A stretch of 35,469 nucleotides of DNA from Natronobacterium haloterrestre. GTDB lineage: Archaea > Halobacteriota > Halobacteria > Halobacteriales > Natrialbaceae. Location of the stretch: positions 1 through 35,469 of the forward strand of contig NZ_FOKW01000017.1 in NCBI RefSeq assembly GCF_900112205.1. The letters run 5' to 3'. The stretch's first letter is position 1; each line of letters starts with the position of its first letter. This document shows, one piece after another, positions 28,869 to 35,469 of this stretch. The notes under the pieces were generated by a model. It made no database searches and was not told the origin of the DNA. It saw only the letters and a list, made by a program, of their open reading frames with translations. The position numbers and the translations under genes were made by a program.

Positions 28869-29966
28869 TCAGTGCGAATCGGAAACCTCGAACGGCTCCA
28901 GCAGTCCCTTCTCCGCTGGATCGGGGACAGCGGAAACCCAGGCGTACGTACCCGGATGCAGGTCGACGTGGACGTACGCCGTTTCGGTCCCCTCGCCTTC
29001 GAGCAACGCCGGCGTCAGGATCGGTTGGACCCCGCCGAGGAACCGTCGCGGTTCCTCCCCGTTCGACACGAGCCCGGTTGGGTCCATCCAGTTCATCCAG
29101 TCGTTCACGTCGTCGACGCTCGTCCCCTCGCCGAAGCGGAGCAGGTGAACGTCGTGGCCGAGGAGGTGCTCGTAGACTCGCTGGTTCGCGAACTGGACCG
29201 CGACCGTGTGCCGGCCGGGCCGGACGTGATCCTCGGCGTCGATCCCGGCGGTCGAGAGGGTGAGACCGAGCGTCGCCTCCGGTTCGGCCTTCGTGTCCGG
29301 CTCGGCCTTCGAGCCGTCGGACCGGTCGTCCCCCGCGGTCACCAGGCGTATCATGCCCTGATAGGAGTGGAACTCGCCGTCCCCGTCTTTGACGAAACAC
29401 TCGAGGATGTAGTCGCCGGGTTCCAGGTCGACGCTCGTTACCGACGTCGTCTCGGGCGAGGTCAACCCGGTACCGCCGCTGGGCACGACGCCCTCGAACC
29501 ACTCCGGGAAGATGACCTCCGCTTCCGGCACCGAGTACTTGTCACTCAGGTCGTCAGGGTCCGGTTCCTTCGCCGGATCGATGTCGTCCATGAACCACTG
29601 GAAGGGACGGGTGACGTGTTCGATGTAGTAGTCGAGCGGATCGACCCCGTCCTCCCTCGCGCCTTCGAACACCGCAGGGGGAACCCTGGCCAGATAGGCG
29701 AAGTGAGTGTGCTCGGTCCGGTTCTCGAGGGTGACGGTCGTCCAGCCGGGGGCGACGGCCTCGGTGTTGAGTTCGAACCGGTGTTCGTCGGTCTCCTCGT
29801 CGTGTCTCGCGACGACCTCGAGCGCGTTCGTTCCGGCGGCTTTCTCCTCGGCCTCGAGGGCGTTCGCGCCGACCCGCCCCGTGACGGCGCTGGCTCCAAC
29901 GAGTACAGGGGGAGTCGCTTTCAGTACGGTTCGTCGGTCGATGTCGGTGTGTCGCTGTGGATCCAT
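28869..29966 (-). CDS. Tat-exported protein with a duplicated domain
   Basis: 365 residues. The N-terminus DIDRRTVLKATPPVLVGASA is a Tat signal with no lipobox cysteine, so the product is probably released or held at the surface. Two related halves follow. In the first (about 70-212), TVTLENRTEHTHFAYLARVP leads to FEGVVPSGGTG and DLEPGDYILECFVKDGDGEF. In the second (about 250-362), TVAVQFANQRVYEHLLGHDV leads to FLGGVQPILTP and DLHPGTYAWVSAVPDPAEKG. Each is cupredoxin-like in length and strand pattern but lacks an obvious full copper site. Function unknown. The 31-base upstream block is shared with the SnoaL-like gene, suggesting co-regulation. Confidence 0.7.
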   Translation of the reverse strand: MDPQRHTDIDRRTVLKATPPVLVGASAVTGRVGANALEAEEKAAGTNALEVVARHDEETDEHRFELNTEAVAPGWTTVTLENRTEHTHFAYLARVPPAVFEGAREDGVDPLDYYIEHVTRPFQWFMDDIDPAKEPDPDDLSDKYSVPEAEVIFPEWFEGVVPSGGTGLTSPETTSVTSVDLEPGDYILECFVKDGDGEFHSYQGMIRLVTAGDDRSDGSKAEPDTKAEPEATLGLTLSTAGIDAEDHVRPGRHTVAVQFANQRVYEHLLGHDVHLLRFGEGTSVDDVNDWMNWMDPTGLVSNGEEPRRFLGGVQPILTPALLEGEGTETAYVHVDLHPGTYAWVSAVPDPAEKGLLEPFEVSDSH

Positions 29967-30006: not shown

Positions 30007-30037
30007 GTCCGAAAATCACCCCTCGAACTATCTCTAG
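30007..30037 (-). promoter_or_regulatory. Shared 31-base upstream block, copy 1
   Basis: Upstream of the Tat-exported protein gene (ATG at 29966). It matches 31055-31085 at 25 of 31 positions; the core is plus-strand AACTATC followed after one base by CTAG. On the minus strand it reads CTAGAGATAGTTCGAGGGG followed by TGATTTTCGG. It contains no classic TATA box, so it may be an activator site with a degenerate promoter. Confidence 0.6.
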
Positions 30038-30131
30038 ACGATCGCCCGGAGGAATTCGGTCAGCGACAGGCCTTCGGTGACGGGAAAAAGAGAACGACAC
30101 ACCACCCTAGCCCGTCGCAGGCGGACGCTCG

Positions 30132-30526
30132 GTCCTCGAAGAAAGGCTGTACCACCCCAGCTGTTGCAACAGCGTGAACCTGGCGACGAGCACCCACGAT
30201 CCGACGACGTGGCCGTTCTCCAGCCGGTCGATCTCGAAGGCGACCATCTCCACAGTGGCACCGGTCGGTTCGATACCGAAGAACGATCACTCCGTACCCG
30301 TCGCGGTCCAGCGGACGGCGACCAGGTCGTCCTCGGCGAGCAGGTTCTCGACCTCGAGCGAGACGTCGGGGAACGCGGCGTGATAGCCCTCGGTACGCCG
30401 TTTTTCGCCCTCCGGACCGCGCGGCGCGTCGGGAGAGTCAGTCGGAGCGGAACGGACGGCGTCGTCGGCGACGGTCCCCTCGGTCGCGAAACCCCGCTCG
30501 TTCCGCACGTCGACGAACCGACGCAC
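30132..30526 (-). pseudogene. Decayed SnoaL-like protein
   Basis: A second SnoaL/NTF2-like gene lies directly after the intact one. It reads RRFVDVRNERGFATEGTVAD, then EGYHAAFPDVSLEVENLLAE and LVAVRWTATGTE, and meets TGA at 30287-30289. The same frame resumes with FFGIEPTGATVEMVAFEIDR and FTLLQQLG, then loses one base in a G-run (plus-strand 30155-30158) and continues VVQPFFED. It has no ATG; a GTG at 30524-30526 is the only start. The motifs match the intact neighbour at equivalent positions (AVHWTISGTQEG, SMLQQLG). It is the relic of a tandem duplication. Confidence 0.75.
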
Positions 30527-30580
30527 GACGCTTCGTACGGGCTGTCGTCGTTGTCACGGGTGCCTCGCTTTGTGCTTCGC

Positions 30581-31006
30581 TCAGTCCGTCAGGCCGAGTT
30601 GCTGCAGCATGCTCAGTTCGTCGGGATTGTACCACTTCTCGACGATCTCCCCGTCCTCGATCCGGAAGAACGCGAGGGCACGCATCGTAAAGGACTCGCC
30701 CGTCGCCGGGAGTTCGCCCAGTTGTCCCTCCTGGGTACCGCTGATCGTCCAGTGGACCGCCGCCATGTCCCCCTCGGCGATCAACGACTCGGTCTCGACC
30801 TCCGCGTCCGGCATCGCTCTGAAGAGGTCGCCCGCCCACTCGAGGTACGCGTCGCTGCCGTGCAGGGACCCGTCGACCCCGTGGAGTCCGTGGACGACGA
30901 CGTCGTCCGCGACCGTCTCCTCGATGACTGCGGGGTTCTCCTCGTTGTACCCCTCTTCGGTGTACCGCCGAACGACGGCCTTGGCGGTTTGTGGTTCCGT
31001 TGCCAT
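30581..31006 (-). CDS. SnoaL-like (NTF2-fold) protein
   Basis: 141 residues. The family hallmarks run VVRRYTEEGYNEENPAVIEE, DAYLEWAGDLFRAMPDAEVE, DMAAVHWTISGTQEG and FRIEDGEIVEKWYNPDELSM with the ending LQQLGL. NTF2-fold SnoaL-like proteins are small cytosolic ester cyclases, isomerases or binding proteins; haloarchaea have many of unknown substrate. It has no export signal, unlike its neighbours. Its upstream 31-base block is shared with the Tat-exported protein gene, and the pseudogene at 30132-30526 is its decayed paralogue. Confidence 0.8.
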   Translation of the reverse strand: MATEPQTAKAVVRRYTEEGYNEENPAVIEETVADDVVVHGLHGVDGSLHGSDAYLEWAGDLFRAMPDAEVETESLIAEGDMAAVHWTISGTQEGQLGELPATGESFTMRALAFFRIEDGEIVEKWYNPDELSMLQQLGLTD

Positions 31007-31054
31007 GGGTAGTCACGCTCTCGTGGAGAGAGCGGGTGGAGGTCCGCTCGGCGG

Positions 31055-31085
31055 GACCGAAAAGTACCCGTCAAACTATCACTAG
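31055..31085 (-). promoter_or_regulatory. Shared 31-base upstream block, copy 2
   Basis: Upstream of the SnoaL-like gene. The most conserved part, ACTATCACTAG on the plus strand (CTAGTGATAGT on the minus), ends 79 bases above the ATG, compared with 71 for copy 1. The near-equal spacing argues for a functional promoter element rather than chance. Confidence 0.6.
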
Positions 31086-31186
31086 GGCCCGGACGCCGTC
31101 CCGGGACACGTTCGACTCCCGTCGGGGACCGTCGAACGACCGGACACGATGCCACGCGAGCGATCGTGCGGCCTTCTCCGACGGTC

Positions 31187-31207
31187 CTAGCACTATCTAG
31201 AGGGGGG
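31187..31207. promoter_or_regulatory. Related CTAG/ATAG motif, variant copy
   Basis: CTAGCACTATCTAGAGGGGG precedes the cupredoxin gene (ATG 31338) by about 150 bases. On the other strand CTAGATAGTGCTAGG aligns with the CTAG-ATAGT core of the two 31-base blocks after a 2-base gap. It is weaker and more distant than the other two copies. Confidence 0.35.
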
Positions 31208-31337
31208 TTTGTCAAGCCCGTTAGACGGTACTGAACACGCGTCGTGTCGCACGGATCCCGGGCCGGGATGCGGACTCGACTGAGTCGGCTGGGGCTCCGT
31301 CCGGCACGACCTGCCAACGATCGAAACCGGTGGTACG

Positions 31338-32591
31338 ATGACACGCACGAACGCGGAGAAAACGGACGAATCGACCGAGGAACCGACCGTCGACCGGCTC
31401 GGGTTCGAACGGCGACCGCTCCTGAAAGCGGTCGGTGCCGGTACTGCACTCGCGGCCGGCGCCGGTATCACGACTGCTGGAGGGGGCGAATCCGACGAAG
31501 ACGACGATGACGACGGGTACGACGGGACCGACGCGGGCGACGGGACTGACACGGAGTCCGAGACCGGGGAGATCCACCCCGTGTACGGCTATCCGGCGAG
31601 GGACGCTGCAGCGATTCCGGACTCCATCGCACCGGACCACGAAGTCACGTTGGACGTCGCTCCACCCGGGCCGGATCAGCCGCCGTTCCTCTACTTCGAC
31701 CCCGCCGGGCTTCGCGTCGATTCCGGTGACGTCGTACAGTTCACGTTCGCCAGCCCCGACCACACCGTCACCGCCATGCATCCCGAGATCGGACTGCCCC
31801 AACGGGTTCCCGACGGGGCCGAGCCGTTCTCGTCGCCCGTGCAGGGACCGGGGTCAGCCTGGCTGTATCGCTTCGACCACGAGGGAGTGTACGACATCTA
31901 CTGCGCTCCCCACCTCGATTTCGGCATGGTGATGCGGGTCGTCGTCGGAACCCTCGAGGAAGCGGAACTGCCGGAGTACGCGAGGTCCGTCGAGGACCTG
32001 CCAAGCAGGGAGGACGTCAGCGCCGGGCTCAACGAGATGAGCGAGCAAAACGAGGACTGCGAGTGGCCGAACCTGATGCCCGCCGGAATCCTCGGGACGA
32101 ACGCGCTGGACGCGATGACCATCCAGAGCGCGGGGACGGTTCCGTTCAGCGCAGTCGTCGAGGAACTCGGCTACGAACTGATCGAGGAACCCCAGGGACC
32201 ACCCCAGGAGGGAATGGGTGGGCCGACCGTCGGGGTCCGCGACCATCCCGACTACGGCGAGATCCTGGTCGGCCCCGAGGGAATGACGGTCTACATGTTC
32301 GACCAGGACACACAGAACGCCGGCGAAAGCGCCTGCAGCGGCGACTGTGCGGACGCTTGGCCGCCACTAACTGTCGACGACGGGGAGCCGGTCGCCGGCG
32401 ACGGCGTGACCGCAGACCTTGAGGCGTTCGAGCGGGACACTGGCGAGCGCCAGGTGACGGCAAACGGGTGGCCCCTGTACTACTTTGCGCGGGACGAGGA
32501 GCCGGGCGACGTCCAGGGACAGGGCGTCAACGACGTGTGGTGGGTCCTCCGACCGGACGGGACCCCGCTCAGGACCGACTCGGACGACTAG
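31338..32591 (+). CDS. Exported cupredoxin fused to a Lipoprotein_15-type domain
   Basis: 417 residues. A Tat-like signal (FERRPLLKAVGAGTALAAGA) is followed by an acidic linker. The cupredoxin domain (about 95-205) has a complete type 1 copper set: His142 (SPDHTVTAM), Cys189 and His192 (YCAPH) and Met197 (FGMVM). A middle segment of about 90 residues contains CEWPNLMPAG. The C-terminal 110 residues match the COG4315/Lipoprotein_15 repeat: GPEGMTVYMFDQDTQN, ACSGDCADAWPPLTV, GWPLYYFARDEEPGDV and VWWVLRPDGTPL. It is a probable surface redox or copper protein. The T-run at 32605-32609 may end its transcript. Confidence 0.85.
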   Translation: MTRTNAEKTDESTEEPTVDRLGFERRPLLKAVGAGTALAAGAGITTAGGGESDEDDDDDGYDGTDAGDGTDTESETGEIHPVYGYPARDAAAIPDSIAPDHEVTLDVAPPGPDQPPFLYFDPAGLRVDSGDVVQFTFASPDHTVTAMHPEIGLPQRVPDGAEPFSSPVQGPGSAWLYRFDHEGVYDIYCAPHLDFGMVMRVVVGTLEEAELPEYARSVEDLPSREDVSAGLNEMSEQNEDCEWPNLMPAGILGTNALDAMTIQSAGTVPFSAVVEELGYELIEEPQGPPQEGMGGPTVGVRDHPDYGEILVGPEGMTVYMFDQDTQNAGESACSGDCADAWPPLTVDDGEPVAGDGVTADLEAFERDTGERQVTANGWPLYYFARDEEPGDVQGQGVNDVWWVLRPDGTPLRTDSDD

Positions 32592-32647: not shown

Positions 32648-35002
32648 TCAGCGAAGTTCCCCGGCGAAGGCCGTCGCGAGCGTCTCGAGCGCGTTCCGCA
32701 GGTGATAGTGGAAGGTCGTCTCCGAGATGTCCATCGAGTCGGCGATGTCTCCAGCGGTGCTTCGACGCGGCCACTCGAAGTAACCGGCGTGATAGGCGCG
32801 CTGTAGCGCTTCCTGCTGTCGGTCGGTCAGTCGATCCGCGATCGACTGGCGGATTTCGATCGGCTTCTGGACGGGCCGATCGAACTCGCGCTGGGCGACC
32901 AGCGTCGACTTCGGGTACGCGGTCTGTAGCCGGTCGGACAGCTGTCGGATGTCGGTCGTCTGCGGAGCCTCGATACAGAACCGCCCCCGGCCGTCGTCGG
33001 CGTATCCCGAGGTGAGCATCGCCCCGTGTTCCGCGAGTTCGGTGAGTGCCGGGCCGTTCATCGCGAACTCGAGCAGCCCGCTCTCGTCCTCGTCGGCGAT
33101 AACCCGGGCTCGCTCCACGTCCGGATCCGCAGTCGCGACGTCGCGGACGGCCGCCGGCTCCGCGCCGTCGACGGTGAGGTAGACGCTCCACGCCCCCGAC
33201 GCCGACTCGACGTAGCCGGTGATGTCGATTTCACACGCGAGGCGGTCGGACGCCCGGACGAACACCAGCCCGGAATCGGTGACCTCGAACTCGAGTTCGA
33301 CGATCGTATCCGCAAACAGGAGCGCGTGCTCCTCGATGGCGTTGATGGCGAAGCCGACGGCCTCGCCGAGGACCTCGAACCCCGTTTGTTCGCGACCACT
33401 GAACGCGAGCGGACGCGTCGCGTAGACGGCCAGGATGCCGTACGTCCGGTCCCCGTGGACCAGCGGCACCGCGGCGGCCGACTCGACGCCGCGCTCGAGG
33501 GCCGCCTCACGCCACGGTTCGAACCTCGGGTCGGTGCGGATGTTCTGGCTCACCTGGACCTCGCCGCTTCGGAAGGCGCGGCCGGCCGGCCCCTGTCCGG
33601 TCTCCTCCCCCGCGGTCGTGACCGTCACCGTCTCGACGTACCCCTCGTCGATCCCGGCGTTGGCACGGGGAACGATCCGCTGGCCCCCCGTTTCGGGCGC
33701 GCCGATCCAGGCGAACTGGTAGAGGTCGGAACTGGCCAGTCGATCGCAGACCGTCTGTTCGATCTCGGTCCGCGTCGGCGACGCGAACAGGTCCCGCGTG
33801 ATCTCGAGGAGCAGTTCGTTGATTCGGTTGAGCGTCTCGAGTTCGTCCCGCTGGCGCTCGAGTTGCCGTTCGCGTCGTCTGCGCTCCGAGATGTCGATGG
33901 CCATCAGGATCGCGCCCTCGAACTCGTCGTCCCGGTACAGCGGGACCCCGCGCCCTGTGAAGTACGCTTCCTCGCCGTAGATGGATTCGAACGGGAACTC
34001 GAACTCGATCGTCTCGCCGTCTTTGAGCCGCGTAAAGAGGTCTGCCTGGCCGGTCTCGGCGATCGACGGCAGGTCACGAATATCCGCGCCGATCGCGTCC
34101 GACTCCTGTTCGTCCTCGGGGAGGCCGATGATCTCTTCGGCTCGCTGGTTCTCGTACGTGATCCGGAGTTCGTCGTCGAGGCGGAACATCCCGAACGGCG
34201 CGTTCTCGACCAGTTCCTCGTTGAACCGCCGGGCGCTACGGAGTTCCCGTTCGCGCTCCGTCCGATCGGTGACGTCGCGTGCGATCCCGCACCGATAGGT
34301 CCGGCCCGTCTCGCGGTCCTCGAACGTCGTTCCGCGGAACTCGTGGGGGACCCGCTCGCCGTCTTTCGTGACGAGATCGACCTGTCGATCGCCGAGCTGG
34401 TCCAGGAGATCGCCGAAGTCCGATTCGGACCCCGAGCCGGAACTCCGTTCGCGCTCTTCCGGCGCGATCAACTCCGTCGGCTCGAGTTCGGCGAGTTCCG
34501 CGTCCGTGTAGCCGGTCACCTCGCGAAGCGTCGCGTTCCAGAGAACGGCGTCCCCGGCCTCGTCGAAGACGTAGACGATGTCGTCGACCGCGTCGAACGC
34601 GCGCTCGAGTACTCGAGTCCGCTCTCGAGCGACGAACCCCGTCCGTTCCTCACCCGCGGCCTCGCGCGCGGTACAGACGTACTGGTCGTCGGTCAACCGG
34701 GCGATCGACAGCTCGTGCGAAACGGTGGTTCCGTCCCGTCGCCGGCCAGCGATCGTGCCCCGCCAGTACCCGTCCGACCGACACGCCGGGAGGATCTCCC
34801 GTTCCAGTCGAGATCGCTCGTCCTCCGCGAGACGGTGGTCCCACGGCTCGCCGACCAGGTCGTCCGGACGCGAAAACCCGTACAGATCGGCGTACGCCGC
34901 GTTGACAGCCCCGTGGCGCTCGCCATCGACGATGGCTATCGCGTCCGTCGCCGCGGTCGACACTCGGTCCCGCTCCCGAATAGCCCCGGCTCCGTCACCC
35001 AT
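32648..35002 (-). CDS. PAS/GAF sensor with HTH_10 (Bat-like) DNA-binding domain
   Basis: 784 residues from the ATG at 35000-35002 (MGDGAGAIRERDRV). The ATG lies about 25 bases below TTAAGTTG, so the mRNA is probably leaderless. PAS domains lie at about 15-105, 125-245 (FDAVDDIVYVFDEAGDAVLW) and 260-380 (NAPFGMFRLDDELRITYENQ). A GAF domain covers about 395-550 (FAWIGAPETGGQRIVPRANA), then the bacterio-opsin-activator-type domain to about 710. The C-terminal HTH_10 has LTDRQQEALQRAYHAGYFEW, PRRSTAGDIADSMDISETTF and HYHLRNALETL. No kinase domain: it should sense and bind DNA directly, like Bat. It is a plausible controller of the adjacent exported-protein cluster. Confidence 0.9.
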   Translation of the reverse strand: MGDGAGAIRERDRVSTAATDAIAIVDGERHGAVNAAYADLYGFSRPDDLVGEPWDHRLAEDERSRLEREILPACRSDGYWRGTIAGRRRDGTTVSHELSIARLTDDQYVCTAREAAGEERTGFVARERTRVLERAFDAVDDIVYVFDEAGDAVLWNATLREVTGYTDAELAELEPTELIAPEERERSSGSGSESDFGDLLDQLGDRQVDLVTKDGERVPHEFRGTTFEDRETGRTYRCGIARDVTDRTERERELRSARRFNEELVENAPFGMFRLDDELRITYENQRAEEIIGLPEDEQESDAIGADIRDLPSIAETGQADLFTRLKDGETIEFEFPFESIYGEEAYFTGRGVPLYRDDEFEGAILMAIDISERRRRERQLERQRDELETLNRINELLLEITRDLFASPTRTEIEQTVCDRLASSDLYQFAWIGAPETGGQRIVPRANAGIDEGYVETVTVTTAGEETGQGPAGRAFRSGEVQVSQNIRTDPRFEPWREAALERGVESAAAVPLVHGDRTYGILAVYATRPLAFSGREQTGFEVLGEAVGFAINAIEEHALLFADTIVELEFEVTDSGLVFVRASDRLACEIDITGYVESASGAWSVYLTVDGAEPAAVRDVATADPDVERARVIADEDESGLLEFAMNGPALTELAEHGAMLTSGYADDGRGRFCIEAPQTTDIRQLSDRLQTAYPKSTLVAQREFDRPVQKPIEIRQSIADRLTDRQQEALQRAYHAGYFEWPRRSTAGDIADSMDISETTFHYHLRNALETLATAFAGELR

Positions 35003-35099
35003 GATGTGACATTCCCTAGCAAACAACTTAATGCCCGAGCCCCGTCGATCCCTGCGCTCGAGAGCACCCAGCGCGGCGGTACGGGATCGACCGGGGCGG

Positions 35100-35384
35100 C
35101 TACTGTTCGGGCAGCCCCTCGATGACTTCCCGGTACTCGTCCTCCGGGAAGGCCTTCAGCGTCTCGCTGCTGATAGCCCCCGCTCGCGAGACGGTGAGCA
35201 CCAGCTGGGCAGCGGTTTCGTCGTCGGGGGCCTCGATGACGGCCACGGCGTCGTACTCGCCGAACGTCAGGTAGAACTCGTCGACCGCACTGTCCATCGA
35301 TTCGGCCAGTTCCCTCGCGTCGGCGAGGCGATCCGGACTCTCGTCGATGTTCGCGATCCCCTGTTCCGTGTATTCTATCTTTCT
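35100..35384 (-). pseudogene. GYD-domain protein lacking its N-terminus
   Basis: The reading frame gives KIEYTEQGIANIDESPDRLA, then FYLTFGEYDAVAVIEAPDDE and ETLKAFPEDEYREVIEGLPE, the GYD family, which is about 95-100 residues long. The usual first strand (a Met followed by about eight residues) is missing. Upstream in frame lies a TGA at 35385-35387, immediately followed by an IS605-type palindrome. An ATG remains at residue equivalent 30 (35297), but it would yield a truncated fold. I infer disruption by the element. Confidence 0.7.
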
Positions 35385-35397
35385 TCAAGGAGAGAAT

Positions 35398-35415
35398 CCC
35401 GTCCTTCAGGACGGG
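35398..35415. repeat. IS605-type end palindrome at the window edge
   Basis: CCCGTCCT, TC, AGGACGGG: a perfect 8-base stem flanked by GAAT and CGTGAAT. On the minus strand the sequence reads TTCACGCCCGTCCTGAAGG, the typical right end of haloarchaeal tnpB elements, so a minus-strand element may continue beyond 35469. The remaining 54 bases show no gene of their own. Confidence 0.6.
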
Positions 35416-35469
35416 CGTGAATCCGACACCGCCGACACAGTCCACGTTCGGTAACAATACGGATATTTA

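Follow-up and report, generated by a model that had tools for sequence, protein, structure and literature searches.

We identified a short promoter element that recurs ahead of several unrelated genes in a window of 35,469 nucleotides from Natronobacterium haloterrestre (the whole stretch of DNA analyzed here), and we propose that it is the operator of a small local regulon under the adjacent PAS/GAF/BAT/HTH_10 regulator, most likely an upstream activating sequence (probability roughly 0.82). The element stands at a fixed distance from a T-rich box, is nearly restricted to this locus, and co-occurs with the regulator and its recognition helix across genera and families; from these sequence patterns we infer that the regulator binds the element directly, that it activates and does not repress, and that it responds to a signal. 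Under this proposal, the PAS and GAF domains of the regulator would sense a signal, its C-terminal HTH (helix ETTFHYHLR) would bind CTAGNGHTADYTWGAG, directly adjoining on its 3' side a weak TATA box devoid of a recognizable BRE, and the bound regulator would recruit or stabilize TBP/TFB at each target promoter (those of the genes for the exported cupredoxin-like protein, SnoaL, cupredoxin/Lipoprotein_15, and GYD), presumably replacing or assisting the BRE. A local regulon under this neighboring protein had been suggested in a sequence-only reading of the window, and the co-occurrence of element, regulator, and recognition helix argues strongly for it. Since even distant species have the switch in company with the DNA-reading helix, a real control circuit is likely, and the pair looks like one that has not yet been described; we found no description of a regulator of this kind with SnoaL, GYD, or acs in the open-licence literature, and one may exist elsewhere.

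The regulator (784 aa; 32648..35002, minus strand) comprises a BAT domain (PF15915, 1.9e-43) followed by a C-terminal HTH_10 domain (PF04967, 1.7e-21), with GAF_2 (1.9e-20) and PAS (1.8e-17) sensor domains, so that the Bat-type HTH_10 protein that had been read next door is borne out by its domain matches. The promoter of the regulator gene itself (window 35003-35030, as well as L015, L016, L066, L068, and L086) contains a TGCTAG that is conserved in these six loci; a TTAA/TTTA box precedes it by ∼10 nt, and the regulator ATG follows it after some 15-25 nt. L072 has TGCTGG at this position. Because this CTAG, a tetranucleotide found here only about once per 1000 nt, is both rare and conserved between the TATA box and the start, it may be a half-site for negative autoregulation.

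Within the window, the blocks at 30007-30037 and 31055-31085 (read on the minus strand as CTAGAGATAGTTCGAGGGGTGATTTTCGG and CTAGTGATAGTTTGACGGGTACTTTTCGG, respectively) are identical at 25 of 31 positions, and they begin 71 nt 5' of the ATG at 29966 and 79 nt 5' of the ATG at 31006, both genes being on the minus strand; direct comparison and these distances confirmed what had been claimed of the two blocks. A third site (31187-31213, plus strand; CTAGCACTATCTAGAGGGGGGTTTGTC) has no mismatch to CTAGNNNTANNTNGANGGGNNNTTNTC, the pattern of shared positions; this pattern was, however, written after the third site had been seen, and 0.18 chance matches to it are expected at ≤3 mismatches. A third copy before the cupredoxin gene was therefore correctly noticed, whereas its description as a weaker form understates it. 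The three sites have in common a 16-base element, whose tightest form is CTAGNGHTADYTWGAG and all versions of which are covered by CTAGNNNTANNTNGA. Element 1 (30009..30037, minus strand) consists of CTAGAGATAGTTCGAG and GGGTGATTTTCGG and precedes the exported-protein gene, with a TATA-like TTTT ∼22 nt from its CTAG; element 2 (31057..31085, minus strand; CTAGTGATAGTTTGAC and GGGTACTTTTCGG) precedes the SnoaL gene; and element 3 (31187..31213, plus strand; CTAGCACTATCTAGAG and GGGGGTTTGTC) lies ∼151 nt 5' of the cupredoxin ATG. Element 2 is kept 5' of the orthologous SnoaL gene in genomes G001, G177, and G201, and element 3 is identical at the orthologous cupredoxin gene in G001 and is also present 5' of the cupredoxin gene in G026.

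When the genome of the window strain (G000) was searched with CTAGNNNTANNTNGANGGGNNNTTNTC, the only 0-mismatch matches were the three window sites and a fourth at C18:31952-31978, where the contig ends 141 nt beyond the site. The region is unbroken in a related genome, G001, in which this site precedes a GYD-domain gene that lies immediately 5' of the regulator gene in the same orientation and is intact (L015:11866-12183; PF08734, 1.2e-30). The window holds only the 3' part of the corresponding gene (35100..35378, minus strand), in which residues 8-99 are encoded by 35103-35378, whereas the first codons, together with the element CTAGAGATAGTTTGAGGGGTGTTTTTCGG (G000:C18:31952-31980), are on contig C18, with a repeated insertion between the two parts. 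The last 92 bases of the window (35378-35469) recur in the genome as three near-identical copies and some weaker ones, which makes an insertion element the likely cause of the break in the GYD gene, and the split accounts for the presence of the fourth element copy on another contig. The repeated element also breaks the assembly, thereby parting the GYD promoter from the regulator. With its GYD gene disrupted, the circuit may be partly decayed in the window strain. The candidate start of the GYD transcript, ∼27 nt after the box, coincides with MPTYIS, the usual start of GYD proteins, so that a leaderless GYD transcript is likely.

Each window element is followed, at a distance of 20-22 nt, by a T-rich, TATA-like stretch. 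An alignment of 20 sites, gathered by a pattern that itself fixed the invariant letters (CTAG at positions 1-4, TA at 8-9, T at 12, and GA at 14-15), revealed a G-rich stretch following these letters and then a T-rich box at ∼22-26, the informative columns beyond the fixed ones being G6, G16, G19, T23, T24, and G28. Haloarchaeal basal promoters contain TTWT and CGAAA boxes (PMC4983044), and no CGAAA-type BRE is visible before the T-rich box at the aligned sites. A poor TATA box without CGAAA fits an activator that would stand in for the BRE or help it. The same HTH_10 regulator could instead act as a repressor that, by binding beside the TATA box, blocks TFB/TBP until a signal arrives, and the element does occupy the usual place of a BRE, immediately 5' of the TATA-like box; we nevertheless regard this as unlikely, because the promoter anatomy suits activator dependence and because Bat, a well-known BAT/HTH_10 protein, is an activator (PMC3184054).

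The reading of the element as the operator of its neighboring regulator was further examined through its distribution, by pattern searches throughout G000 and by a search for regulator orthologues in 392 genomes of the order and in the named genomes. In G000 (4.5 Mb), CTAGNNMTADYTHGA has five matches, four of which are at the regulator locus; the fifth (C15:824048) lies in a CTAG-rich intergenic stretch, present also in G001, and was rejected since it has neither the TATA layout nor a correctly placed target. Likewise, four of five CTAGNNMTADYTHGA matches in G001, and all three in Halostella pelagica (G105), which belongs to another family, are at the syntenic or orthologous locus. A site for some other, general regulator, with its nearness to the HTH_10 gene being incidental, is conceivable inasmuch as binding by the HTH_10 protein is a prediction. 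Such a site should be scattered over the genome, yet the tight form CTAGNGHTADYTWGAG has only 13 matches across the 392 genomes, in 7 of them, and 12 of the 13 lie within ∼7 kb of an orthologue of this regulator, the remaining one (in G218) falling inside an unrelated coding sequence. Even without the three genomes that defined the element, five of six CTAGNGHTADYTWGAG matches are at a regulator orthologue; as CTAGNGHTADYTWGAG was shaped partly on some of the matched sites, exact p-values for these counts are loose, but the direction of the result is firm. Moreover, the presence of the element tracks the recognition helix (see below), and a general regulator is thus a poor explanation that we consider quite improbable.

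A relaxed form of the pattern gave 16 matches around 12 close relatives of the regulator (231 kb) and none in the ∼700 kb surrounding other HTH_10 genes (11 loci of mid-distance and 30 of distant homologues), the mid-distance homologues (42-49% identity) being at loci without the element. Loci that had no part in defining the pattern showed five strict matches versus 0.03 expected from the background rate. In addition, where a genome lacks a close orthologue of the regulator, its SnoaL-A homologues (43-52% identity) have no element upstream. The loci with a strong element (the window, L015, L016, L066, L068, L072, L073, and L086) all encode a regulator with the helix ETTFHYHLR, and their HTH domains are 76-99% identical to that of the window regulator. 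The regulators of L069, L070, and L071 are 55-62% identical overall, with HTH domains only 48-51% identical and helices reading SSPTLHRHLR or AAPTLNRHFR; these loci have neither the element nor the SnoaL, cupredoxin, and GYD genes. L067 and L074, whose helix is nearly right, have only weak variants of the element nearby. In the orthologue group, the element co-occurs with the helix ETTFHYHLR. Some sites have no obvious target (L016 at 8146 and 1906, and L066 at 7419); of these, L016:8146(+), from Halostella pelagica, is a strong element directed at the 3' end of a gene running the other way, and a small RNA or a short gene might start there.

Among the window genes behind the element, the exported protein (365 aa; 28869..29966, minus strand) has a Tat-type leader and no match in Pfam or NCBIfam. 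Its structural model is of low confidence (mean pLDDT 67), and in the PDB this model best matches two-domain laccases and multicopper oxidases, for which the Foldseek probability is high although the structures superpose poorly overall (TM ∼0.2). Together with His88, Cys190, His200, and Met205 (H88, C190, H200, and M205), which are invariant in an alignment of three homologues, these matches indicate that the protein is likely composed of two tandem cupredoxin-like domains; it possibly binds copper, with these four residues as candidate ligands. SnoaL-A (141 aa; 30581..31006, minus strand; PF07366, 1.5e-32), whose PDB match is a predicted ester cyclase, is presumably cytosolic, as no signal peptide was seen in its sequence. 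The third gene (31338..32591, plus strand) encodes a 417-aa exported cupredoxin, pseudoazurin/plastocyanin-like (PF00127; pseudoazurin match in the PDB, 1.7e-9), fused to Lipoprotein_15 repeats (PF03640). The sequence-only reading had named these three as surface or redox genes and as the targets of the regulator; SnoaL is not a surface protein, and the list proved too short, since the GYD gene is likewise preceded by the element, and relatives add a second SnoaL family, a cupin gene, and others.

Across genomes, the element is found before SnoaL-A (window, G001, G177, and Halomicrococcus), SnoaL-B (G001, Halostella, G177, and Halomicrococcus), cupredoxin/Lipoprotein_15 (window, G001, and G026), and GYD genes (the window strain and G001), as well as before genes for a cupin (G001), a membrane protein (Halovivax), and a Tat-type exported protein (G143), and its distance to the start codon is steady (63-67 nt for SnoaL-B and 73-82 nt for SnoaL-A). 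Orthologues of the SnoaL and cupredoxin genes are accordingly among the genes that it precedes; the homologues of the exported protein are rare (two other genomes among 199) and all without the element, so that this protein is not confirmed as a target by orthology. A decayed SnoaL copy (30155-30547, minus strand), ∼34% identical to the intact one, with one in-frame stop and no clear start, lies just downstream of the intact gene. Such duplication of SnoaL genes in the cluster could suggest that the sites arose when a single promoter region was recently duplicated, or that they stem from a mobile repeat. However, an element that precedes non-homologous genes (SnoaL-A, SnoaL-B, cupredoxin, GYD, and cupin) is not accounted for by descent from a common promoter, the flanks of the sites show no extended similarity, and the element is kept between families while the surrounding non-coding DNA differs; we accord this possibility very little weight. 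Chance likeness of basal haloarchaeal promoter elements is highly improbable, for although the block includes a TATA-like stretch of the kind that many promoters have, the full two-block pattern at ≤3 mismatches found only the two blocks in the window and nothing in 100 dinucleotide shuffles, and the CTAG...GA part by itself hardly occurs outside the regulator loci.

BAT/HTH_10 proteins are among the largest regulator families of haloarchaea, with roughly 30-150 candidate first-look matches to the window regulator per haloarchaeal genome, and to our knowledge hardly any HTH_10 operators have been established. Assigning the present element to its regulator would connect one operator with one orthologue group, for which the homologues with a changed helix and no element provide a natural control, and would place a set of genes whose role is obscure (SnoaL, GYD, and copper-protein genes) under a single sensor.

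A second HTH_10 group (L098-L119, e.g., L107:9588-9616(+)), from Halovenus, Halorientalis, Salinibaculum, Haloglomus, Halobacterium, and other genera, is encoded directly beside acs (acetyl-CoA synthetase). In ∼15 of these loci, the acs promoter contains a conserved TTGGGATARYTAG ∼22 nt before TTAATAT, which is absent from a second acs-like gene ∼4 kb away. As in the window, the HTH_10 gene adjoins its likely target, and TTGGGATARYTAG stands at the same distance from the TATA box as the window element, to which it is significantly similar (p 0.002-0.005 by column permutation); it differs in having no CTAG start, a helix that is mostly SSPTLHNHLR, another target, and regulators only 32-38% identical to that of the window. 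This likeness supports the proposed mechanism and suggests a layout common to the family. Tentatively, and with odds somewhat against it, BAT/HTH_10 proteins may generally read a 13-16-nt element ∼22 nt before the TATA box, with letters that vary with the recognition helix, namely CTAGNGATAGTTTGA or CTAGNGCTATCTAGA for ETTFHYHLR and TTGGGATARYTAG for SSPTLHNHLR. If this is true, the operators of dozens of uncharacterized regulators per genome could be read from neighboring promoters. The window and acs groups together offer a first entry, open to direct testing, to a family-wide recognition code.

Regulators of the NarO/DmsR type, which act in anaerobic respiration, resemble the window regulator in their HTH_10 DNA-binding domain and in regulating redox genes, and differ in that their N-terminal sensor is Cys-rich rather than PAS/GAF. 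A close parallel in layout is the Bat/bop regulon of Halobacterium salinarum, where Bat, with PAS, GAF, and C-terminal HTH domains, activates bop (PMC3184054). Both systems have (i) a PAS/GAF/C-terminal HTH regulator beside its targets, (ii) a ∼16-nt element separated by a few bases from the weak TATA box that follows it, the TATA lying ∼22-24 nt from where the element starts, and (iii) unrelated genes under one element. Indeed, in seven bop promoters the element ACCGTACTGTTTGGG....AGAGTTAC has nearly the same spacing to the TATA box as the window element. Beyond this layout, the resemblance to Bat upstream sites that had been suggested does not extend to the letters, as the bop element is similar to CTAGNGHTADYTWGAG only at chance level (p 0.43-0.57 by column permutation of matrices from the seven promoters), and the window targets (SnoaL, cupredoxin, GYD, cupin, and exported protein) are not the opsin and retinal genes bop, brp, crtB1, blp, and bat. 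By analogy, then, the window system probably works like the Bat regulon, with an element immediately upstream of TATA that is common to unrelated genes beside their regulator, while lying outside the Bat/bop regulon itself.
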